Shown: one piece after another, positions 8,153 through 35,883 of the stretch | How positions within the stretch are numbered: position 1 is the stretch's first letter | Layout of the letters: the number at the start of each line of letters is the position of its first letter | IMG/VR virus record: IMGVR_UViG_3300047392_000059 | Span: 1-36,963 of that record | From: a virus | Length of the DNA: 36,963 nt | Reading direction: 5' to 3' (one strand) | Notes under the pieces: generated by a model | The model's database searches: none | What the model saw: only the letters and a program-made list of their open reading frames with translations | What the model was told of the DNA's origin: nothing | Position numbers and translations under genes: made by a program

Positions 8153-10906
8153 TTAAGACAATCTAACCGGACTTTCATATCCGTTTTTTCGTGTATTGCC
8201 TCGAATTGCTTGTAAATCGTTTTCAATGTTAGACAGATATGACATCAACTGTCCAATTACTTCTGGTGTTACTGCGGCATTGCCAGATAATACATTTGAC
8301 AATGCATTACCTTGTTGTTGCGCGGCTCCGGCTAAACCATCAGTTGATATTTGGGGAATTGACAATCCATTTAAACTTGGCATGTCAATGTTGCTTATTT
8401 CAACTAACGCATTTTTAAAATTGTCTAGTGCATCTAAGTCTAAGGCTTTTAAGTTATCGTTGATCAAGCCAATGCTTGATCCAAACTTAAACATTCCTTC
8501 GCCAATCATGCTGATCTTGTCTGCAACTGGTACTAGTTCAAGTATCTTCTCCATTGGACTTTTTGCACCAAACAATCCCATTAAGCCTGTTACTAAACTG
8601 GTTGCAGTAGCGGCTACCATACCAGCGGCAAATACAACTGCTCCTGCGCCTACTGCGGCAAGGCCAGCGCCAACAGCAATCAAGTTAGCACCATCAACAT
8701 CGCCAACTTTTTTGATTGCATTTGCAAATACATCTGCGGCTTGTCCTGCAACGTATGCGCCTGCACCAAATACACCTAGTGCTATGCCTAAACCTGCAAT
8801 AGCAACAGAGCCTAATAATATAGGCCCAATAAATGTGCCCATTATGGCTGCAACTGCTCCAAACGCACCTAATGCTACTACCCCTTTGGCAATGCCTTCC
8901 CATTCAACTTCACTGAATGCTTGGAATCCTTTACCAGCTATCCATAAAGATGCACCAAGTAATGCTATAACTGCGGCACCTTTAATCATACCTGTTGTTG
9001 CTTCGCCGACTAATCTAGCCATGCCAATTAAGCCACCAAGGGCAATGGTACCTTTAACTAAACTACCCCAGTTTACTTCATTGAACGTTTTTAATCCCAC
9101 AGCAGTTAATGCTAGCGCACTGCCTAGTAATGCAAGAGTAGCGGCACCCTTGACTGTTTTACTTTCGCCTAACTTGCCTAGCATATCACCGAAGCCTTCC
9201 ATGCCTTTGCTAGCGGCACCACTTAACTTGTCCATGATACCACTACCGGCACCTTGTGCGGCAGCAGTTGAGCCATTTTTCCAACCTGCAAATGATCCAG
9301 CGGCTGGCCCAGCAGTGCCCATCTTCTTACCGAACATATCGCCTAGCTTACTACCTAGGCCACCTTTTAAGATACCGCCAATGCCGCCCATGACAGCAAT
9401 TGCACCTAAGCTACCTACTAGCGTTGCAATACCAGCAGTGACACCTATGATAACATTACGCAAACTTTCAAGAGCCGCTGTTAAACTGTTCATGGCCATG
9501 ATGTTGTCGGTTTCTGACGTTCTTGGCTTAGGCTCCTCACCAGGTTTAGCAGAATCCATGCCTGCCTTGAATCTAGCCAATGTAGCACCAGTTGCAGAGT
9601 ACCCTGGTGCATTAACTGCAAGATTGGATGCGTCTTGAATAATCTGATCCATCTGCGGCCCTAAATTCTTCATTTCCCTAGCAACAGCACCCATGTCTTT
9701 AGCACCACCGGCTCTGTTAATGGATGTCATTAACAAGTCCATGGCTTGTTGCTGTGGTCCGGCACCAATTACAGCTCGTGCTTGACCTTCTTCGCCACGC
9801 ATTACACCTAGTGCGGCACGTGCGGCTTTTTCAGGATCAGTTGCAACACCCATGTCTTGCATCAACTTGGCCAGTGCCGCTGTTTCAGCAGTCATGCCTC
9901 CACGTGCCGCAAATGTACCAGCATCAGTTTTTCTAAATGCTTCTGCGGCTGCAAGTGCCGCATCTTTAGCAATACCAAATGCACTGTTTAGAGTCTTTGT
10001 AGAATCTATAGTCTTGGTATACTGTTGGGCCAAACGTTGTTGTGCTTCTTGTTCAGTCTTAGCACCCATGGCCGCGGTAATAGCAAGGTCGCCTGTTAGC
10101 TTTGCTTGTTCTTCATCAGTCATACCCATTGAACGAGCGGCACGTGCGGCACGGTCAACACTCTTGACAAGATCTTTGCCTAAGGCATTACGTAGAGTAT
10201 TATTAAGATATCCACTACCATACTTCAATCCACGACTTAGGTTACTTAAATTTTCAGCGGCTTCTTGGCTTGTGGCACCAAATGCTCTAAAGGTACCGTT
10301 ACTGTTTTCAATTACTTTCATGAATGCGCCACCAAGGCCACTCATTAGTTTCATCTGTGTAACTGAACCAACACTAAATTTGTCAAGGTCAGCAAATGCA
10401 CCCATCTCGCCAGCTTGCTTGGCAAATTCTTGCAAGCCACCAATGGCATACCCAACACCCATTGCAATGCCACCGGCTATCTTGCCAAAGGTAGTTCCAG
10501 TATATTCTAAATTGCCACCAAGACGACTAAAGGCGCTACTTAAATTTGCATTTTCCCCAATCAGTGTTGCACCAAGATCTTTGAAAGCTTCTGTAGTTTT
10601 TTCTTGTGCCTTCTTGGCTTCTTTTTGCTCTTTGGTTAATTCTTGTTGTGCATCAACTGCTTCCTTAGACGCTTTGATTTCAGCATCTGTTTGCACACGT
10701 TGGGCACGTATTGACTTTGTAGATTTGTCTAGTTCGACACGATTTTCTTTTTGTGCAGGATCAACTGCTTTGGCACGTGGTACTGGACCATTTTTTGGAG
10801 TGCCAGACGATGATGTTTGGCTACTGCCACGGCCAACAGAACTTGACACGCTGTCTAGCTTGTCTGTTAATCTGTCTATTGCCCTTATGAGTTCTTTATC
10901 ATCCAT
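8153..10906 (-). CDS. Tail tape-measure-like protein
   Basis: The 917-aa protein has the architecture of a tape measure. It opens with a charged helical coiled-coil N-terminus (about 1-120, including QELTKEQKEAKKAQEKTTEA). Helical, Ala-rich segments with an unusually low Cys/Trp content follow, then Gly/Ala-rich hydrophobic membrane-like helices. About residues 586-770 hold three imperfect repeats of the form KGAA-x-ALLG ... F-x-EV-x-W ... KG-x2-ALG. The C-terminal 80 residues are helical. Tape measures set tail length and are extruded with the DNA. In T4 this role belongs to gp29 (590 aa), so length would predict a longer tail. The ATG at 10904-10906 is preceded by AAAGGA at a rather long distance and by late-promoter motifs at 10951-10985. 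A different large membrane-interacting structural protein is the alternative. Confidence 0.7.
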   Translation of the reverse strand: MDDKELIRAIDRLTDKLDSVSSSVGRGSSQTSSSGTPKNGPVPRAKAVDPAQKENRVELDKSTKSIRAQRVQTDAEIKASKEAVDAQQELTKEQKEAKKAQEKTTEAFKDLGATLIGENANLSSAFSRLGGNLEYTGTTFGKIAGGIAMGVGYAIGGLQEFAKQAGEMGAFADLDKFSVGSVTQMKLMSGLGGAFMKVIENSNGTFRAFGATSQEAAENLSNLSRGLKYGSGYLNNTLRNALGKDLVKSVDRAARAARSMGMTDEEQAKLTGDLAITAAMGAKTEQEAQQRLAQQYTKTIDSTKTLNSAFGIAKDAALAAAEAFRKTDAGTFAARGGMTAETAALAKLMQDMGVATDPEKAARAALGVMRGEEGQARAVIGAGPQQQAMDLLMTSINRAGGAKDMGAVAREMKNLGPQMDQIIQDASNLAVNAPGYSATGATLARFKAGMDSAKPGEEPKPRTSETDNIMAMNSLTAALESLRNVIIGVTAGIATLVGSLGAIAVMGGIGGILKGGLGSKLGDMFGKKMGTAGPAAGSFAGWKNGSTAAAQGAGSGIMDKLSGAASKGMEGFGDMLGKLGESKTVKGAATLALLGSALALTAVGLKTFNEVNWGSLVKGTIALGGLIGMARLVGEATTGMIKGAAVIALLGASLWIAGKGFQAFSEVEWEGIAKGVVALGAFGAVAAIMGTFIGPILLGSVAIAGLGIALGVFGAGAYVAGQAADVFANAIKKVGDVDGANLIAVGAGLAAVGAGAVVFAAGMVAATATSLVTGLMGLFGAKSPMEKILELVPVADKISMIGEGMFKFGSSIGLINDNLKALDLDALDNFKNALVEISNIDMPSLNGLSIPQISTDGLAGAAQQQGNALSNVLSGNAAVTPEVIGQLMSYLSNIENDLQAIRGNTRKNGYESPVRLS

Positions 10907-11001: not shown

Positions 11002-11895
11002 ATGGATAACTCAAACCCACTAAAACAGCCAATTAAGCAGCCTGTTGCCAACCCATTGGCACAATATTATCGCAAGCCCGGCACTTATATTGAACTACCC
11101 AGTGGTGGCCGCTACTATAAAGTAGCACCAAAGATGTCAGATACAGGCGAACTAGCAGTATATCCAATGACTGCCAAAGATGAACTGGCTCTAAAGAATC
11201 CAGATTCGTTGTTAAACGGCGAAGCACTAAAACAAGTTATTGCTTCTGTATGTCCTGATATCGTAGATGTATCTGAAATCCCAGCACCAGACATTGATGC
11301 TATCTTGGTTGCTATGCGTATGACCAGCTACGGTGATGATATGGAGCTTGATGTAACTCACGGTTGTGAAGAAAGCGGCGGTAAGTCGCAAAGAGTTACA
11401 GTTGGCTTGGGCAGTGTATTATCAACATCACGTGCTATTCCCGAAACATTGGGCACAGTAACACTAGCAAATGGCGTGGTTGTACAGCTAAAGCCATATA
11501 CATTAGAAGCACAAAGTCGCTTGCTTCGTGTACAATTTAATACAATGCGTCAGTTACAAGGTGCCGAAGCAAACGAAAACTCTACTATTGAACAAAAAGC
11601 AGATATTGCCAATCGTGGTTATGATCAGTTAGTTGCACTAAGTCAAGACATTCTTGCTTCTAGTATCACTGTGGTACGATTGCCAGATGGAGTTGAAGTA
11701 ACAAATTTCAATCACATTTACGAATGGGTTAAGAACTTAGATCGTGCAAGTAACGAACGTCTAGACGAAGAAATCAAAGCATTTGGCAAGTATGGTATTA
11801 CTCGCACACTAGAAGTAACTTGTGATCATTGTAAGAACAAATTTACAACTGACATGCTATTTGACCCCACAAGTTTTTTCAGCGTCGGCTCTTGA
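11002..11895 (+). CDS. gp26: Baseplate hub / tail assembly protein
   Basis: The 297-aa protein belongs to the T4 gp26 (T4_baseplate) family. Diagnostic parts are NPLAQYYRKPGTYIELPSGG at the N-terminus, ELAVYPMTAKDELALKNPD, an internal DIDAILVAMRMTSYGDDMEL, and a C-terminal EVTCDHCKNKFT with a CxxC pair. T4 gp26 is shorter (208 aa). The family is needed for central hub assembly. An AAGGAT site precedes the ATG and a CATAAATA late motif lies at 10943. Seven codons before the stop, the gene contains T-TTT-TTC at 11874-11880. A -1 slip there would extend the protein into the next frame, giving 370 aa. This resembles tail assembly chaperone genes of other phages and lets gp26 be re-read as the short form of a frameshift pair. 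Confidence 0.88.
   Translation: MDNSNPLKQPIKQPVANPLAQYYRKPGTYIELPSGGRYYKVAPKMSDTGELAVYPMTAKDELALKNPDSLLNGEALKQVIASVCPDIVDVSEIPAPDIDAILVAMRMTSYGDDMELDVTHGCEESGGKSQRVTVGLGSVLSTSRAIPETLGTVTLANGVVVQLKPYTLEAQSRLLRVQFNTMRQLQGAEANENSTIEQKADIANRGYDQLVALSQDILASSITVVRLPDGVEVTNFNHIYEWVKNLDRASNERLDEEIKAFGKYGITRTLEVTCDHCKNKFTTDMLFDPTSFFSVGS
11874..11880 (+). promoter_or_regulatory. Slippery heptamer T-TTT-TTC: likely programmed -1 frameshift site
   Basis: In the gp26 reading frame, position 11874 is the last base of a Ser codon, followed by TTT and TTC, so the heptamer is correctly phased as X-XXY-YYZ. After a -1 slip the ribosome reads CAG CGT CGG CTC TTG and enters the 73-codon frame with no stop. That frame is closed upstream by TGA at 11862-11864, so it opens just three codons before the heptamer. 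Bases 11883-11887 can pair with 11922-11926 (CGTCG/CGACG), extendable by A-T and G-U pairs to 8 bp, a possible but closely spaced stimulator. Confidence 0.65.
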
Positions 11896-12113
11896 GTCTA
11901 GGTCTCGATAGAAACAAGATTCGACGTTTCATCGAGGGCATTGAAAACGAATCAAGAGCCGTAATCAAAGAAGTATCCATGTTAAGCGTGTGGGGAGGCA
12001 TAAGTCCACAAGAAATCTGGAACATGACTCACGAAGAAAGAATGGTACTAAGCGAAGTCATTAAAGAACACACAGAAACTATGTACGGCAAAAAGGGTAT
12101 TGCTCGTCATTGA
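11892..12113 (+). CDS. 73-codon frame expressed as gp26 -1 frameshift extension or by coupling
   Basis: The frame encodes a helical, charged sequence (RRFIEGIENESRAVIKEVSM, then WGGISPQEIWNMTHEERMVL, then a KEH-x-ETMYGKKG tail). Its only start near the 5' end is TTG at 11892, overlapping the gp26 stop as TTGA. No Shine-Dalgarno sequence precedes it, since the upstream bases are TTTTTTCAGCGTCGGC. Independent initiation would therefore be poor. The slippery heptamer at 11874-11880 shifts ribosomes straight into this frame. By position it lies where T4 has gp51 (a hub assembly catalyst, not a virion part), and small proteins of this shape follow gp26 in environmental relatives. The proposed role is the C-terminal part of a tail assembly chaperone; this is inference from organisation only. 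Confidence 0.7.
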   Translation: MSLGLDRNKIRRFIEGIENESRAVIKEVSMLSVWGGISPQEIWNMTHEERMVLSEVIKEHTETMYGKKGIARH

Positions 12114-12739: not shown

Positions 12740-13165
12740 TTAAAGTTTGTCTTTGATATGATTTTTATGTACTTTTAAGTTGATAATGCCGTTGTAGTAG
12801 TCTGCTGATTCAAGTACTTTTCTATCAAATTGTTCTTTTGCTTCTATGTAAGAGCATACAGCTTTTGCATTGCAATAATGCAGTATCTCTCTTTTAAATT
12901 TATCTGGGCCTAGTTGAGCTAAGTCTGCTAAAAGTTCTACGGATGAGCCATAATATGTTTGCCAGTCGGATTCAATCTTGCTTTTGATCTTCTTCCGCTT
13001 TTTTGTACCGTTCTTTAGTTTAACAACCTTGTATGTGGTTTTAGAAAACTTTGATAGCTTCTTCCCCACATACTTTCGGTTGTTAGTTAGGTTTGTTATA
13101 AGGTACACAAACCCAACGCAGTCATCGGGTAATGCGTCTACAACTTGATCGTTGTAAAACCACAT
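12740..13165 (-). CDS. SegE-like GIY-YIG family protein (putative homing endonuclease)
   Basis: The 141-aa protein opens with GFVYLITNLTNNRKYVGKKL, a GIY-YIG-type core in which the two motifs appear as FVYLI and KYVGK. It continues with KIKSKIESDWQTYYGSS, then REILHYC and YIEAKEQFDRKVL. This is the pattern of the SegE-like GIY-YIG domain proteins common in T4-like phages. Such enzymes nick or cut DNA and can spread themselves as free-standing homing endonucleases. Its ATG shares one base with the stop of the upstream Hc1-like gene (TAATG), so translation is probably coupled. It is the last gene of the gp55 operon and borders the non-coding island, a typical place for a mobile gene. Activity is unproven. 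Confidence 0.75.
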   Translation of the reverse strand: MWFYNDQVVDALPDDCVGFVYLITNLTNNRKYVGKKLSKFSKTTYKVVKLKNGTKKRKKIKSKIESDWQTYYGSSVELLADLAQLGPDKFKREILHYCNAKAVCSYIEAKEQFDRKVLESADYYNGIINLKVHKNHIKDKL

Positions 13166-27180: not shown

Positions 27181-30100
27181 ATGGCAAAAGATCCAAAAAA
27201 ATTAAACCCTGAAAACCCATACAGCAAAACATTCCCGGGTCAGGATTTAAACACAGGCGTTTCACCTAAGACGACTGACTTACTACCTACGATTTTTAGA
27301 ACTGAAACAAATAAGAAAGTTCTAAGTGCAGTGATGGAAGACTTGTTTCAACCAAGTTCCATCGAAACATTAAACTATGCCGTTGGCCGTAATAGAACAA
27401 AGTTTACTGGCTTAGATTATTTGCCACATCCTACTGCTCGCAGACAATTAGAAACTGGCTTAGTGCTGTTCAATGATGATAAGGTATCTGTATTAACAGC
27501 CGACGACATTGCAACAGCATGGGATCTAAATGATAGAACACGTGAAACAGTAGAACCAATTAGCATTTTAGATTTGCCAATTGACCCAGACAAGTTTTTA
27601 AACTGGGCAAACTATTACTGGATCGAAGAACGTATGCCAGTGGTGTTTTTAACCAGTGGTAATACTGACTTAAATGTACAGTCTGACATTGTTGGTAAGA
27701 AATATTACACATCACCTGTACAGCCAAACGGTCGTAGTTTAGAATTTAAAAATGGCATGCGAGTGGTATTTCACCAACGCCCAGGCCTAACTGATATCAG
27801 CGGCGATTTGGATTTAGATTTGCTAACAGATGGCAACAGCCAACTTCAAATGGATTATGAATTTATCAATTACGATAAAGGGCTAATTGGTGTATCTGTT
27901 GATGGTGTTATTCTAACACAAGGCGTTGAGTACTATATCTCCGGCAATCACATTGTGTGGCTGTCTGAATTCCCAGCACAAAAGGCTGTGCATGTTCATG
28001 TACCAAACTTTTATATCACACTAGACGAAGAACTTAGATTGCGTTCGTGGTTAGTAACTGGTGTTGGCACTGAAGAAGGTATTCAGTTATTAGGTCTGCA
28101 CTCTCAGTTTACAAACACAGTATACAGCAAATTATCAAACGCATTGTGGGACCAATCGGCAGTGCCATGGGACCGTGTTGAGTGGGATGGTTTCATTCCT
28201 GGTATTAACCCTAAGGAATACATTTTACAAGAGCCGGGCGCAAAAAACAGAAATGCACACAGCCGAACAAATTGCTGGTTCCACAAGTCTACTATTCAAA
28301 CAGCAGTTGACTTTTTAGGAATTGAATTTAGTGACATTGCAAAAAGCAATAGTCAGGCTATGCGTCCTATTGTTGAATTTGAAAACGGCCTTGAATTATA
28401 CAATCACGGTACTCGCTACCGCGCCTGGCCTACGTTCTTGGTCAATGAACTAAACATTAGTATTCAAGATTTCTTTAACTTGCCATTAGTTGATAGCAAC
28501 ACAACTGTCTTGAATCCAAGATATATGTCATTGTTGGCTAAACTTGATAGACAAGTTGATATCATTGTACAAACACAAATTGGCGCCAACTTCAAGTTAG
28601 CGTTAAACGCATCATCCATTCCGCAAGACGAGCTTATTAAAATCTTAGCTAACCTTGACAAGGACAATGCCGCCGGTAGAATTCCAAAGTATGCAGTTTA
28701 CAAAATAACCGGCAACAGTATTACCTGGATTAAAAATCCACCAGCATCTAACTGGACAATTACCTACAGAATTTCTGGAGTGCTATTGTCTGCTTTGCGT
28801 ATTCTATGGCTAGCTAAAGATTCAAATGCTAACAAAATTTTAAACATCAAGCACGATGGTGTAGTAACAACAGGAGTATCAAAGGAAGTAGCATACGATG
28901 GTGACGCAGTAGTAATCAACGTAACTTCATCTGCTGACCCACATTACTTGAAAGAGTATCACTGGAAGAATGGTGTTGCTGTTCCAGCAACATTCCGTAC
29001 TACTGCAATTCAACAACCAGTGTTTGAAATTTACAGTCGTGATGGCGTTAAGCTAAGTTCAAACACAAGAACAAAGCCATCAGTAGTTAACAGCACAATT
29101 ATTAAGATCAAATCTGGCGCAAATTTTGATGACGAGTCAGGTTATAACATTGACTTCTTGCCAACTCAATTTACACAGTTGACTGCCGACAATACAGCGG
29201 TTAACAGCATGTACAATATTTTGTTTGAACACACGCTTCAAACAACAGCATTGTATATTGACAGCACTGGTACTCAACAGCCAGTGCCTGGACCATACTC
29301 ATTCCGTAGATTCAATGGTGGTGATACAGTGTCTGAACTAAGCAATGGCTACCGTCGTGCATGGTTCAAATTGAAAAGCTGGGCACTTCGCTCACAAAAC
29401 ATTGACGGCCCAACAACTATTCAGTTAGATAGTTCAATGTGGCCAGAATACAATTGGGCAGTTAAGATTGCCAATGGTGTAGGCACAGTATTGCACACAG
29501 ACGACTTTAAACAGGTTGTAGATAATGTAGCAGTAGCCGCACGTGGCCGCACTGTTTCATTCAAAGTATATCACAATGGATTACAAACTGTAGCAACAGT
29601 ACGTGGCCAAGGCTTTGAAGCATTTGATGTGCCAGTAGTAGATAGCGTAGTGTCATTTGTTGTTCCAACAACAGCAGTTGATACGCTAACTGTTTCTGTT
29701 GGCTTTATTAGCTTTACTACTCGCTTAATTGAACTTAAAGATGATCCTCGATTTGTAAAAATTAAGTTGAACAGCCTTCCTGTAGATTATGCAATTGATT
29801 CAACTGCTTATACAGTTACATTAAATGGCACAGGTGTTGTTGAAATTCAGCATCAAGGTAATAATATTGACAGTGACCACTTAACTGCTATTCCAGGTAT
29901 TGATTATAATCCAGAGCAATTTGAAAACTTTGGTGAGATTAGCGTAGCAAGAATTATTAAAGGACTGTCAAAGAACATTGCAGTAAACACAGCAGGCAAG
30001 CGTGAATGGATTGATTGTCCAAAGTTTAAAACACTCGACGGCATTTACATGGCTGACAACAGTGCAATTCGTTCTTCATGGGCAAACTTTGCATTGCAAC

Positions 30101-33100
30101 CTGGACTACAAGATGTTGTAGTTGCACGTTCAATGAGTGCTTGGAGATGGTACCGTAAGTTTATTTCCAAGTTGGAAGAAAGCAATATCGTCTATAACAT
30201 TAGCGAGTATGGTATTAACAATACACTTGACCGTATCTTAAGTGAAATGCTTCTGGGAGTAACTTATAGCTCAGTTGATGCAGTATCTGGTATGGCATTT
30301 ACTCGCGATGGTATGCAATTGAATACATTAACAGCCAATGGTAGTGATACATTTGCCATTGGCTCTGTTGATTTGTTTACTTTACCATATGCCGCAGATC
30401 ACGTTTATGTTTACGTAAACGATAATTTACAATTACGCGGCGTTGACTATACAATCAGCGGACAACAGGTTGTGTTTAATACTGCACCTGCAATTGACAG
30501 CGTCATTGAGATTTATTTTGCTGGCCAAACAGAAGTGTATTCTGGTATCCCAGCAAGCCCTGCCAAACTTGGTTTAGGTGGCGTATATGTTCCACAGCTG
30601 GTAACAGAAACTTGGGGAACAAACTCTAAGACGTTTATTCAACGTCACGACGGCTCACGTATCAGTGCATACGTAGATCCGGAATCCGGGGAAGTTACTG
30701 ATAGCTATCCACTAAATGCAATTATTTTAGAATTAGAAAAACGAATCTACAATGCTTGCATTAACACAGTCGGTGAAGCAAATAGACAGTACGCATTTAG
30801 AAACTATTCGGCAGAAGAAGTAAGCGAGTCACAGTCTCGCTCACAGCTAGAATGGTATTCTATAAATGGCATTGATTACAGAAGTCGCAGTGACTTTAAT
30901 GCCAACGATGCTTGGACATGGAACTATGGTAATGCAAGCTGGAGAAAGTTATACTTAGATTTTTACGGTACATATCATTTACATGATGCTCCGTGGGAAG
31001 CACTAGGCTACGATAGCAAGCCAACATGGTGGGATACTCATTACTCATGGACTGACGCAACAAAGCGTCAAGCACTTGAACTGGCACTATACTTTGGTAT
31101 TTTAAATGAACCAGGTGGTGCGGCTTTTACAGATCCAAAATTTGCACACCCACACACAACGTACCCAGTTGATGCCAATGGTAATTTACTAAGCCCATTT
31201 GATGCTGGTATTGCTTCGCCAACAGTTGATGAAGCACAACAGCCTTGGGAAATTGGTGCAATGGGTCCAGCTGAAATGGCATGGAGACGAAGCGTAAGCG
31301 GCACATGGAGTAATGTGCTTCATGCATTGGATTGCTACGACTTAGCAAACGAGTTCTTTGATAGTTCAATCAACCCGTTTATCCAAACAGTACATAATAA
31401 CAGCACAGCACCCAAAGGCACAGGCAGCATTGCACCTGACCAGTTCTTATACGCACGTACCTTAATTGGTATTGGCGCAGTATTGTTCGAAGGCTACCGC
31501 GAATTTAATTTATTAGGTGAGTCACCATTGGATGACTTGTTGGCCATTGGTACAAAGTTAGAGTTTAGTGTTGGTGGTTTCACTGACGGTGTTATTACAT
31601 TGAAAATGCCGTACTCTAAATTCCAAGACAACGAATATGTACCTGACAATGACTTTGGTTTAACATTGAGCCACGGTATTCCAAAGGAACAGTTGCGTTA
31701 CACTTCTGTACGAGTTGAAAAAGATGACGTTGGATTCCGTGTGTACGGCTTTGATCCAAAGTACAGATTCTTTAAAGTTCTAACACCAACAGCAAATGCG
31801 CTGTCAACCGGATACCCTACAACTCGTCGTCAGTTGACAACCAGCTACGGTACATTTGTTGAGTACCTACAATGGGACACTACTCCAGTGGCAGTGCCTT
31901 ATGGATCATATGTTGCAAACAAGCAAGACTTGATCACGTTGTTAATGGGTCTTGGAGAATATCAAAAGCAACAAGGACTTGTCTTCGACACTATAAACAG
32001 TCGTGGTACTATAACAGACTGGAAACAAGCGGCAATTGATGCTATCTCCTGGAGCGAAGAACAGTGGGGTGAAGAACACTTCTGTATCGTAGGTGTTGCA
32101 ACAACTGATGGTTTAAAAATTCATCACCCAATGGGCGCACTAAGCAGACTTGATGCTGACCTTGGCCGCACTGGTAAGGTGTTGTATGCCAATGGACGTT
32201 CAGCAACTGCCGCAGAGTTGTTAATTACTCGCGACTTTGAGCCCAGCACAGATAAAATCACTCCATTAACCAACGATCAAATTGTATTTGTAAATTTTGA
32301 AACACAATATTACGATCACGTTTTCTTTATCAGCAACAAGACCAAGTTTGGTGACTTAATTGCTGACTTACAAACAGATAACAGATTACAAGACTTGACA
32401 ATTGCTGGCCGCAGAACTTATAACTGGACAGGTCGTCCATCTGCACTTGGTATATTGCCACAGCAGTACAGCACCTTGCCAGGCTTTGATACGCTTGTAA
32501 ATGATATTGTTGCAAGTCACATGCCAGAACGTGTTGCTTTTGATACACTTAAAACTGACATTGCCCGAGGAAACGTAGTACCTTCAAAGAAAAGTGTTAT
32601 TGCTGACATTGTACAAGACAGCACAAGTGCGTACTTGTACCGTCAAGGCCTACAAAGTGCTGTTGGTACAAACTTGGCCATTGATGCGCTGTTCAGAAAT
32701 AGAAACATTGACATTCCGGGCAACGAACAAGACGTGGGTGTTAATGAGCAGTGGATGTTTAACACCGGCGAGTTTGGTAATTTGTCAAACAAGAAAACTT
32801 GGGAAATTGAACTTCGTAAAAAAGACCTAACAAGCAATCGTCAAATCGTAAGATTCCGTGATGATGCACTTGGTGTTACAGATTTACGAAGCGACAACAT
32901 TATTGATATCGTTGGTAAGGCTGATCCACGTTGGGTTTCTCGTCCAAGCGATTACTTGTTTAAAACAATCAATAGAGACGCGATCGACAAGAACTACAGC
33001 AAGTCTCAAAATTGGTTGCCAAGTGCTGGTTTAGCTGACGTTGTTACAACCGACGTAGAGATCATGCGCCTAAGCGATCTTACATTTGATAAGTTGCTCG

Positions 33101-35883
33101 ACGTAGAAGATTCTGCAATACTATTTGAAACACAATCATTTAGCAGATACAACGATTACAATACAGGTGATTACGTTTGGCACCAAGGTAAGTTGTACAG
33201 AGCAACAGTACGTATCATTGGTTCTGATGTTAGCGCATTTGACAACACACAATGGGCTGAAGTACTAATAACTGGCACAATGCTTCCATCTATTTGGATC
33301 AGTGATTACATCTTTACAAATCCACAAGGCTACGGCTGGAACGTTCTGCAGGCATTTGCCCCTGCGTACATTGAAGAAATTTGTCCAAATGCATTCAATA
33401 CTGGCTTAAATGAAAGTAAGGCATCGTTCGCTAGCCCACACAGATTAGCAAAAGGTGACTCGTTTATCATCGCTGGCACAAATGACGGAAACTATAACGG
33501 AGTTCATCAAGTTAAAGAAGTAGTTGATGACTATAACGTACTGATTCAAGCACGTAGTACAAGCAATGAAGTTGTCTATAACGCAGTTGGATTCAAATTA
33601 AGTTCTGTTAAATTTACTACAGATGAAGAATTCTTAGAATCAGCATTGATGTTCAGCGCCGGAATGACAGCGTATGTTGATTACGGTGACATTGAAGGAA
33701 CCTATAAGATTTACACCTTTACTGGCAATGGACAAGTAAGCTCACAGCAGTACGACACTGAACACTATAGCAATACAATGATTGATAGTGGATCAATTTA
33801 TCAAGTACAGTTGTTTGATTATGATACTGAAAACTTAATCCAGACTCTTGAAGTGTATGATCCATACAAGGGCTTGACAATTGATGATGTTGCCCAGTTC
33901 ATTGACTTTAAGCAATTGCCAGACCCTGCAAGTTACAACGTTAATGAGTTAGGCTTACCTGACGAATACAACTCAACACCTTGGGGTGCTGAGCAAGTTG
34001 GCAAACTATGGTGGGACCTAGACAAAGTACGTTACATTGAATACGAACAATCAGGTAATTTACAGTACCGTGCTAACCATTGGGGCGAACGCTTTGCTGA
34101 CAGCGAAGTTGCTATCTATGAATGGGTAGGTAGTACAGAACTACCATCAACAGATGTTGCACCAGATGCATACTTAGACACAAGTGGCAATGCTGAAGGT
34201 CAAATTAGATACAGTGAAATTGTAACAACTGATCCAGATTCTGGCGCAAGCACAACAACATATTACTATTGGAAGCGTAGTCCTTCAGTAATACCAGCTG
34301 GCGGCAATAGAGCATATTCAGCAGCCGCTATTGAGTCAGTGCTAAACAACCCAGATGTAAATGGTGTTGCTTGGTTAGCTCCTATTGATACTAATGCATT
34401 TATCGTTGCTAATATTTCTGGTGTGTTTGGAAACAAAGACAAAGTCATCCTACGTATCGAGCAAAACATAAACCCAGAACAAGTACATAACAACAGCGTA
34501 TTAGTAACAGAAAACGTAGATGTCATTGATGACTTCTTGTATCAAAGATTGTCATCAAGTGTCGTAGGCCGCGACAACTACAGAGAAGCATATAAGCTAA
34601 ACGAGTACGTTGTTGGCCAACAATATCGCAAAGGTGATTACCTATACATTAAAAACAATGGCATTGATGTTGCTACTAGCACGTACGGTGGTAGCGATTA
34701 TCCAATACTTCAAAATCTTGATGATACTCGTTACGATATTCATACTGTTCGTCGTGCAACATCTGCAGACCATAAAATTTATGTAACTATCAACGACTTT
34801 GTTGCAAGTGGTCTTGCTAAGGATATCAAGCAGAGATTTATTATCAAGAGCGCCGCTGGCGCATTGATTAAAGATCCATACGAAAACACAGAAGGATACT
34901 ATGCAGTAGTTAATACTCGACGCAAAGTACCTGATGCTAGCTTACATCCATTACGACGTTACGGTAATGAGTATGCTCCTCGCCCACAGTCCTGGTTCAA
35001 AGATGTTATTGCGGCCCGCAGAACCCTTATCACAGCAGCCAATGATTACTTGTTAAACATCGATACAATTAGCAAGCCAGACTGGGACCGATACTTGATA
35101 AAGTATCAACCATTAAATGGATCATACGAAAAAGATCTAACCCAGTATTGGGACTATGTTGATTATATTGTACCAGGCTATACAGTTGGTAACGAACAAG
35201 TACGAATCCGTTCTGAAGAGATTGGCATACTTGATAGCACAATAACAAATTTTGGTATCGTTGATAATTATGGTAATATCATTGAAGCATATACAAAGTC
35301 TGGTAATAACCTAACTCTGATGTATCGCAAAAATGGTACAATCCAATTCTCAAATGCAATTTGGGACGGCAGCTTAAATGATGCCTGGGACAAGTTGCCT
35401 TGGGATAGAACATACTGGGACGAAGATATCAGCGAAGTAGTTGAGAGTATTCTTCGTGCCTTGCGTAGAAATATCTTTGTAGGCGAGGACATCAACTACT
35501 TTAACAAGTTATTCTTTGCATTGGTTAAGGAAAGTTTGTCACAGATTCCAAACGCAGATTGGGTAGTTAAAACAACATATCTTGACGTATTCCAAACCAG
35601 CGAGCGTGAGTTGGAAAAGGTGGGTACATACTACAACAAGAAAGATAAGTTAATTATCAAGTACATTGACGAAGTTAAGCCTTTCCACAGCAAAATTGTT
35701 GAAGCAAACAAGCTAAACAATGCTCAACAAGATATTGCAGTTTCTATTAGTGAATCAATTACTTTGAATTGGACCATTAGAACCATGCTAACCGACGAAG
35801 AAGGCAACCCAATTGAAACCGAAGACGGCAGAAAACTGGCACCAATCTCTGACTCTCTTGTACAAGACTTAGAAGAACAATAA
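27181..35883 (+). CDS. gp7: Giant baseplate wedge protein (gp7-like)
   Basis: At 2900 aa this is the largest gene in the window. It follows gp6 by 12 nt with AAGG before the ATG, the position of gp7 in T4 (1032 aa). The N-terminus (SPKTTDLLPTIFRTETNKKV) resembles wedge proteins of environmental T4-like phages. The long middle contains beta modules, for example FAIGSVDLFTLPYAADHVYV followed by NDNLQLRGVDYTI, like those in the protein at 339-1571. Trp-rich segments recur (EWDGFIPGINP near residue 336 and the related DGSLNDAWDKLPWDRTYWDE near 2730), as does LWWDLDKVRYIEYE at about 2275. No transmembrane segment or frameshift was seen. A fusion of gp7 with other wedge or fibre-attachment modules would explain the size; the gp7 name rests on gene order and partial resemblance. 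Confidence 0.6.
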   Translation: MAKDPKKLNPENPYSKTFPGQDLNTGVSPKTTDLLPTIFRTETNKKVLSAVMEDLFQPSSIETLNYAVGRNRTKFTGLDYLPHPTARRQLETGLVLFNDDKVSVLTADDIATAWDLNDRTRETVEPISILDLPIDPDKFLNWANYYWIEERMPVVFLTSGNTDLNVQSDIVGKKYYTSPVQPNGRSLEFKNGMRVVFHQRPGLTDISGDLDLDLLTDGNSQLQMDYEFINYDKGLIGVSVDGVILTQGVEYYISGNHIVWLSEFPAQKAVHVHVPNFYITLDEELRLRSWLVTGVGTEEGIQLLGLHSQFTNTVYSKLSNALWDQSAVPWDRVEWDGFIPGINPKEYILQEPGAKNRNAHSRTNCWFHKSTIQTAVDFLGIEFSDIAKSNSQAMRPIVEFENGLELYNHGTRYRAWPTFLVNELNISIQDFFNLPLVDSNTTVLNPRYMSLLAKLDRQVDIIVQTQIGANFKLALNASSIPQDELIKILANLDKDNAAGRIPKYAVYKITGNSITWIKNPPASNWTITYRISGVLLSALRILWLAKDSNANKILNIKHDGVVTTGVSKEVAYDGDAVVINVTSSADPHYLKEYHWKNGVAVPATFRTTAIQQPVFEIYSRDGVKLSSNTRTKPSVVNSTIIKIKSGANFDDESGYNIDFLPTQFTQLTADNTAVNSMYNILFEHTLQTTALYIDSTGTQQPVPGPYSFRRFNGGDTVSELSNGYRRAWFKLKSWALRSQNIDGPTTIQLDSSMWPEYNWAVKIANGVGTVLHTDDFKQVVDNVAVAARGRTVSFKVYHNGLQTVATVRGQGFEAFDVPVVDSVVSFVVPTTAVDTLTVSVGFISFTTRLIELKDDPRFVKIKLNSLPVDYAIDSTAYTVTLNGTGVVEIQHQGNNIDSDHLTAIPGIDYNPEQFENFGEISVARIIKGLSKNIAVNTAGKREWIDCPKFKTLDGIYMADNSAIRSSWANFALQPGLQDVVVARSMSAWRWYRKFISKLEESNIVYNISEYGINNTLDRILSEMLLGVTYSSVDAVSGMAFTRDGMQLNTLTANGSDTFAIGSVDLFTLPYAADHVYVYVNDNLQLRGVDYTISGQQVVFNTAPAIDSVIEIYFAGQTEVYSGIPASPAKLGLGGVYVPQLVTETWGTNSKTFIQRHDGSRISAYVDPESGEVTDSYPLNAIILELEKRIYNACINTVGEANRQYAFRNYSAEEVSESQSRSQLEWYSINGIDYRSRSDFNANDAWTWNYGNASWRKLYLDFYGTYHLHDAPWEALGYDSKPTWWDTHYSWTDATKRQALELALYFGILNEPGGAAFTDPKFAHPHTTYPVDANGNLLSPFDAGIASPTVDEAQQPWEIGAMGPAEMAWRRSVSGTWSNVLHALDCYDLANEFFDSSINPFIQTVHNNSTAPKGTGSIAPDQFLYARTLIGIGAVLFEGYREFNLLGESPLDDLLAIGTKLEFSVGGFTDGVITLKMPYSKFQDNEYVPDNDFGLTLSHGIPKEQLRYTSVRVEKDDVGFRVYGFDPKYRFFKVLTPTANALSTGYPTTRRQLTTSYGTFVEYLQWDTTPVAVPYGSYVANKQDLITLLMGLGEYQKQQGLVFDTINSRGTITDWKQAAIDAISWSEEQWGEEHFCIVGVATTDGLKIHHPMGALSRLDADLGRTGKVLYANGRSATAAELLITRDFEPSTDKITPLTNDQIVFVNFETQYYDHVFFISNKTKFGDLIADLQTDNRLQDLTIAGRRTYNWTGRPSALGILPQQYSTLPGFDTLVNDIVASHMPERVAFDTLKTDIARGNVVPSKKSVIADIVQDSTSAYLYRQGLQSAVGTNLAIDALFRNRNIDIPGNEQDVGVNEQWMFNTGEFGNLSNKKTWEIELRKKDLTSNRQIVRFRDDALGVTDLRSDNIIDIVGKADPRWVSRPSDYLFKTINRDAIDKNYSKSQNWLPSAGLADVVTTDVEIMRLSDLTFDKLLDVEDSAILFETQSFSRYNDYNTGDYVWHQGKLYRATVRIIGSDVSAFDNTQWAEVLITGTMLPSIWISDYIFTNPQGYGWNVLQAFAPAYIEEICPNAFNTGLNESKASFASPHRLAKGDSFIIAGTNDGNYNGVHQVKEVVDDYNVLIQARSTSNEVVYNAVGFKLSSVKFTTDEEFLESALMFSAGMTAYVDYGDIEGTYKIYTFTGNGQVSSQQYDTEHYSNTMIDSGSIYQVQLFDYDTENLIQTLEVYDPYKGLTIDDVAQFIDFKQLPDPASYNVNELGLPDEYNSTPWGAEQVGKLWWDLDKVRYIEYEQSGNLQYRANHWGERFADSEVAIYEWVGSTELPSTDVAPDAYLDTSGNAEGQIRYSEIVTTDPDSGASTTTYYYWKRSPSVIPAGGNRAYSAAAIESVLNNPDVNGVAWLAPIDTNAFIVANISGVFGNKDKVILRIEQNINPEQVHNNSVLVTENVDVIDDFLYQRLSSSVVGRDNYREAYKLNEYVVGQQYRKGDYLYIKNNGIDVATSTYGGSDYPILQNLDDTRYDIHTVRRATSADHKIYVTINDFVASGLAKDIKQRFIIKSAAGALIKDPYENTEGYYAVVNTRRKVPDASLHPLRRYGNEYAPRPQSWFKDVIAARRTLITAANDYLLNIDTISKPDWDRYLIKYQPLNGSYEKDLTQYWDYVDYIVPGYTVGNEQVRIRSEEIGILDSTITNFGIVDNYGNIIEAYTKSGNNLTLMYRKNGTIQFSNAIWDGSLNDAWDKLPWDRTYWDEDISEVVESILRALRRNIFVGEDINYFNKLFFALVKESLSQIPNADWVVKTTYLDVFQTSERELEKVGTYYNKKDKLIIKYIDEVKPFHSKIVEANKLNNAQQDIAVSISESITLNWTIRTMLTDEEGNPIETEDGRKLAPISDSLVQDLEEQ

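Follow-up and report, generated by a model that had tools for sequence, protein, structure and literature searches.

A predicted -1 frameshift in the gp26-like, probable tail assembly chaperone gene of a T4-like phage lineage, with a covarying RNA stem downstream

The gp26-like gene and its overlapping -1 frame

The window analyzed here spans positions 1 to 36,963 of the IMG/VR virus record IMGVR_UViG_3300047392_000059. On its plus strand, positions 11002 to 11895 hold a gp26-like gene that starts with ATG, encodes 297 aa, and represents the predicted short form of a tail assembly chaperone (TAC-N). The protein matches the Pfam family PF12322 (T4_baseplate; 49.8 bits, E 4.7e-13, curated cut-off 24.5) and the gene matches PHROG 150; its AlphaFold model, with a pLDDT of 85, matched nothing in the PDB at an E value of 0.001 or below. 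Seven codons ahead of the gene end, the heptamer T_TTT_TTC (11874 to 11880) lies in 0-frame phase (codons AGT, TTT, and TTC), as the original prediction had it, and no other in-phase TTTTTT[TC] heptamer occurs among the window genes (∼11,490 codons).

The -1 frame is closed by a TGA at 11862 to 11864, open from 11865 to 12110, and terminated at 12111 to 12113, which confirms the earlier description of a frame running free of stops into a small downstream one. This C-terminal extension (11865 to 12113, plus strand, stop included) has homology to the annotated "gp51" ORF of cyanophages and to the T4 gp51 C terminus. The part that would be translated after a slip comprises 77 codons (11880 to 12110), giving a predicted shifted product of 293 + 77 = 370 residues, the length first proposed. 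The 0-frame stop (TGA, 11893 to 11895) is overlapped by a TTG at 11892 to 11894, which is the only -1-frame start near it; we looked for a Shine-Dalgarno sequence ahead of this TTG and saw none, in agreement with the original reading.

A tape-measure-like gene encoding 917 aa lies next to the gp26-like gene on the minus strand (8153 to 10906). Its adjacency and divergent orientation are as previously claimed; its match to PHROG 4372 is weak (E 1.3e-8, 155 residues).

Beyond these genes, the window carries a Polynucleobacter-1 RNA (Rfam RF01718; 12509 to 12652, minus strand, 93.9 bits), a family reported from Burkholderiales and fresh water (PMC2864571). Of 20 relatives scanned, 17 carry the RNA downstream of gp51, again on the minus strand, and it seems to belong to this phage lineage. 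It adjoins a gene for a SegE-like GIY-YIG homing endonuclease (12740 to 13165, minus strand; PF19835, E 2.4e-32). A single open frame of 2,900 codons occupies 27181 to 35883 on the plus strand.

Conservation of the slip site and of the -1 frame

The heptamer is in phase, as T TTT TTC or T TTT TTT, at all 78 IMG/VR loci close to the window (relatives with a readable gene end, 38 to 99% identical; loci L014 and L020 are cut off by the ends of their contigs). It is also present in 157 of 157 further IMG/VR loci found with P-SSM2, phiM12, PA5oct, and 121Q as queries, in 15 of 15 named jumbo phages (including Atu_ph07, Phosso, PA5oct, 121Q, RaK2, XacN1, and SCTP-2), and in P-SSM2, syn9, S-PM2, and phiM12; in HTVC008M, gp26 ends in ...SFF and the gp51 match lies in the -1 frame. 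The residue ahead of FF varies (S, N, D, H, A, T, R, or Y), and the last base of its codon is always T. Calculated from each gene's own codon use, the chance of this constant T across 39 representatives is ∼10^-22, a value that is overstated because the lineages are not independent.

The original prediction had named conservation of both the heptamer and the distance from stop to slip site as checks. The heptamer is kept without exception; the distance is not, and we rejected it as a criterion, since the 0 frame drifts after the slip site and its stop falls 7 to 40 nt from the heptamer start. Conservation from the slip site to the stop is confined to codons of the -1 frame, those of the 0 frame being free to vary: the -1 frame keeps a (R/Q/Y)xxL(L) pattern, with leucine at its fourth position in 19 of 20, while identity in 0-frame columns is 0.06 to 0.46. 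That gp26 and the small frame were once a single gene, now broken or misassembled, might be suggested by T4, whose gp51 is one continuous gene, but the break is shared, down to the codon at which it falls, by independent contigs and finished genomes numbering in the hundreds. Because the break is conserved, we consider this reading refuted and give it practically no chance of being right.

The distribution of start codons bears on another alternative, in which ribosomes would end at the TTGA (11892 to 11895) and restart at its TTG to make a separate 73-aa protein. The TTGA overlap is found in the close clade, and Phosso has been annotated in this manner, but the overlap is a feature of that clade rather than a general one. 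In L078, PA5oct, and RaK2, the -1 frame lacks any start codon over the stretch from the slip site to 60 nt beyond the 0-frame stop (in PA5oct, none occurs in the entire frame), and in other relatives -1-frame start codons occur only at least 20 nt beyond the stop. The earlier view that the small frame lacks a normal start is thus borne out, such codons being often absent in relatives. Because L078, PA5oct, and RaK2 have no start nearby, restart at the 0-frame stop is not the general mechanism; it would also leave unexplained the constant heptamer and the conserved -1 frame ahead of the stop, and we regard it as very unlikely.

One relative interrupts the -1 extension with a single in-frame TAG (L079, 3816 to 4067), beyond which homology resumes. 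A code change was rejected as the cause: the standard code leaves the other genes of this locus intact, which makes a lone mutation or an error likelier.

A covarying RNA stem downstream of the slip site

An 8-bp stem pairs GGCTCTTG (11887 to 11894) with CAAGAGCC (11953 to 11960) across a loop of ∼50 to 60 nt. It begins 6 nt past the slip site (spacer, 11881 to 11886), inside the range of about 5 to 9 nt expected for a stimulatory RNA structure. The two arms are almost invariant in the close clade and covary outside it, reading GGCTCCTG/CAGGAGCC in L066, GGCTTTTG/CAAAAGCC in L069 to L071, L079, and L080, GGCTTTCT/AGAAAGCC in L075, GGCTCTTT/AAAGAGCC in Atu_ph07, and CGCTTTTG/CAAAGGCG in L202. 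Pairing holds in 98.6% of cells across 57 sequences, with compensatory (two-sided) changes in 23 cells, compared with 27 to 61% in slid controls. RNAalifold returned exactly this stem and nothing else, the window sequence alone folds into it (z = -3.6), and under a synonymous-codon null that preserves the protein the stem in the window has p = 0.001. Inside the loop, an inner hairpin (11906 to 11934; 4 to 5 bp in the alignment) covaries in the close clade.

The 8-bp stem is weak or missing in L065, some cyanophages, and the RaK2 group, which has no clear one, and different strong stems, not all significant, occupy a similar place in P-SSM2, S-PM2, phiM12, XacN1, and PA5oct. The frameshift region itself matched no family in an Rfam search. 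The CGTCG/CGACG pairing originally proposed does exist in the window (11883 to 11887 with 11922 to 11926), but we rejected it as the conserved structure because only 47% of its cells pair over the 57 relatives. The stem at 11887 to 11894/11953 to 11960, which that prediction had missed, is newly seen here and is a putative stimulator.

Polymerase slippage could in principle join the two frames as well: an RNA polymerase dropping one T would produce fused mRNAs, and T runs here span 6 to 8, with T7 or T8 in some relatives. Most relatives, however, have only T6 followed by C, which is short for polymerase slippage, and neither the precise phasing with the codons nor the covarying RNA stem placed exactly 6 nt downstream would follow from this mechanism, making it exceedingly improbable. 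Comparison among relatives shows the slip site, the frame, the extension, and the stem to be under selection, and a -1 ribosomal frameshift on T_TTT_TTC, aided by the stem and yielding a short and a long tail assembly chaperone, is in our judgment very probably the correct reading.

One gene or two: the gp26/gp51 family and a predicted chaperone pair

PF12322 is represented twice in T4, by gp26 and gp51 (hub assembly chaperones), two genes that share this domain with the window gene but are separate and divergently transcribed. The domain matches T4 gp26 over its whole length and gp51 over residues 1 to 201 of 249; gp51 is thus a continuous gene made of the PF12322 domain plus about 48 aa. Its additional C terminus aligns with the -1 extension, so that gp51 is collinear with the predicted fusion, although the profile match between the extension and gp51 is a modest one (E 0.0011, probability 21%). 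Jumbo-phage records have one PF12322 gene each versus two in T4; in the outlier SCTP-2, PF12322 was not reached in the Pfam search. In the one-gene phages P-SSM2, S-PM2, syn9, HTVC008M, and phiM12, a match to phrog_634, the gp51 C-terminal family, is confined to the -1 frame that follows gp26. T4-type gp26 genes end mostly in TTCTTT and have no extension in the -1 frame; T4 gp26 itself ends GAG TTC TTT GAG, which is not slippery, unlike the end of the window gene. L290 ends in TTTTTT, yet its -1 frame enters the next gene and offers no extension. These alignments suggest that T4 gp26 corresponds to the short form and gp51 to the long fusion, the two existing as paralogues.

A short and a long form with a common N-terminal domain are predicted from the frame, and the T4 homologues are likewise short and long. 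The proposal that gp26 and the small frame make up a chaperone pair is supported, fitting both the T4 paralogues and the phiM12 neighborhood, where the order is tail tube, gp26, gp51, an ORF, and tape measure. Several T4-like groups reportedly retain the frameshift according to Vladimirov et al. (2022), with T4 using genes 26 and 51. Vladimirov, Gautam, and Davidson (Virology 2022, 566:9-15) are credited with the T4-like tail assembly chaperones and their two-gene solution (PMC10885494) and with the poly-T slippery sequences that TAC-N genes of T4-like phages contain (PMC12846349), whereas a 2016 review still excepted T4 (PMC5009743). The statement in the original prediction that it knew of no established frameshift for T4 gp26 is out of date for T4-like gp26/gp51, where one was published in 2022, though T4 itself uses a short and a long gene without frameshifting, unlike the window phage. 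Chaperone frameshifting is already known in phages, some T4-like ones included, and because the T4-like case is credited to the 2022 paper, with the same gp26/gp51 family and a poly-T slippery sequence, the window adds one more of a known kind. Lambda G/GT likewise comes in short and long forms, which arise from a low-level -1 slip close to the 3′ terminus of a gene that neighbors the tape measure gene (PMC5009743), but the slippery heptamer and the protein family are different and the tape-measure-like gene of the window is on the opposite strand. The frameshift of Vandenendeviridae/Andersonviridae (phage Adele, PMC12846349) shares a conserved poly-T at the TAC-N end and an open -1 frame; it differs in its GTTTTT motif, and the accessible part of that paper claims no covarying stem.

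In the proposed frameshift, most ribosomes would end at the gp26 stop and release the 297-aa TAC-N. A minority would slip one base back on T_TTT_TTC, both phenylalanine tRNAs re-pairing with TTT TTT and the stem 6 nt downstream aiding the slip, and would read 77 further codons to produce a 370-aa TAC-NC. If the pair works as lambda G/GT does, the tape measure may then be coated by many copies of the short form and few of the long one, which would recruit tail tube subunits to it. Both the occurrence and the rate of slippage are inferred, as is the role of its products as chaperones, with product ratio and chaperone function taken from lambda (PMC5009743).

Subject to the content of Vladimirov et al. 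2022, what is added here is the spread of the frameshift to a jumbo-phage lineage and the conserved RNA stem. A broader joint proposal, that the stem and inner hairpin form a previously undescribed stimulator of chaperone frameshifting (window clade, Atu_ph07, and Phosso) and that single-gene frameshifting is ancestral, with T4 genes 26 and 51 arising by duplication, seems to us evenly poised between right and wrong. The conserved stem is a defined, testable candidate stimulator. The gp51 genes of P-SSM2 (L120, 1718 to 1891) and phiM12 (L121, 1531 to 1692) are listed in the annotation as "baseplate hub assembly catalyst" genes in their own right and are probably just the -1 extension of gp26. 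Because the small cyanophage "gp51" ORFs are probably not separate proteins, such annotations should be mended.
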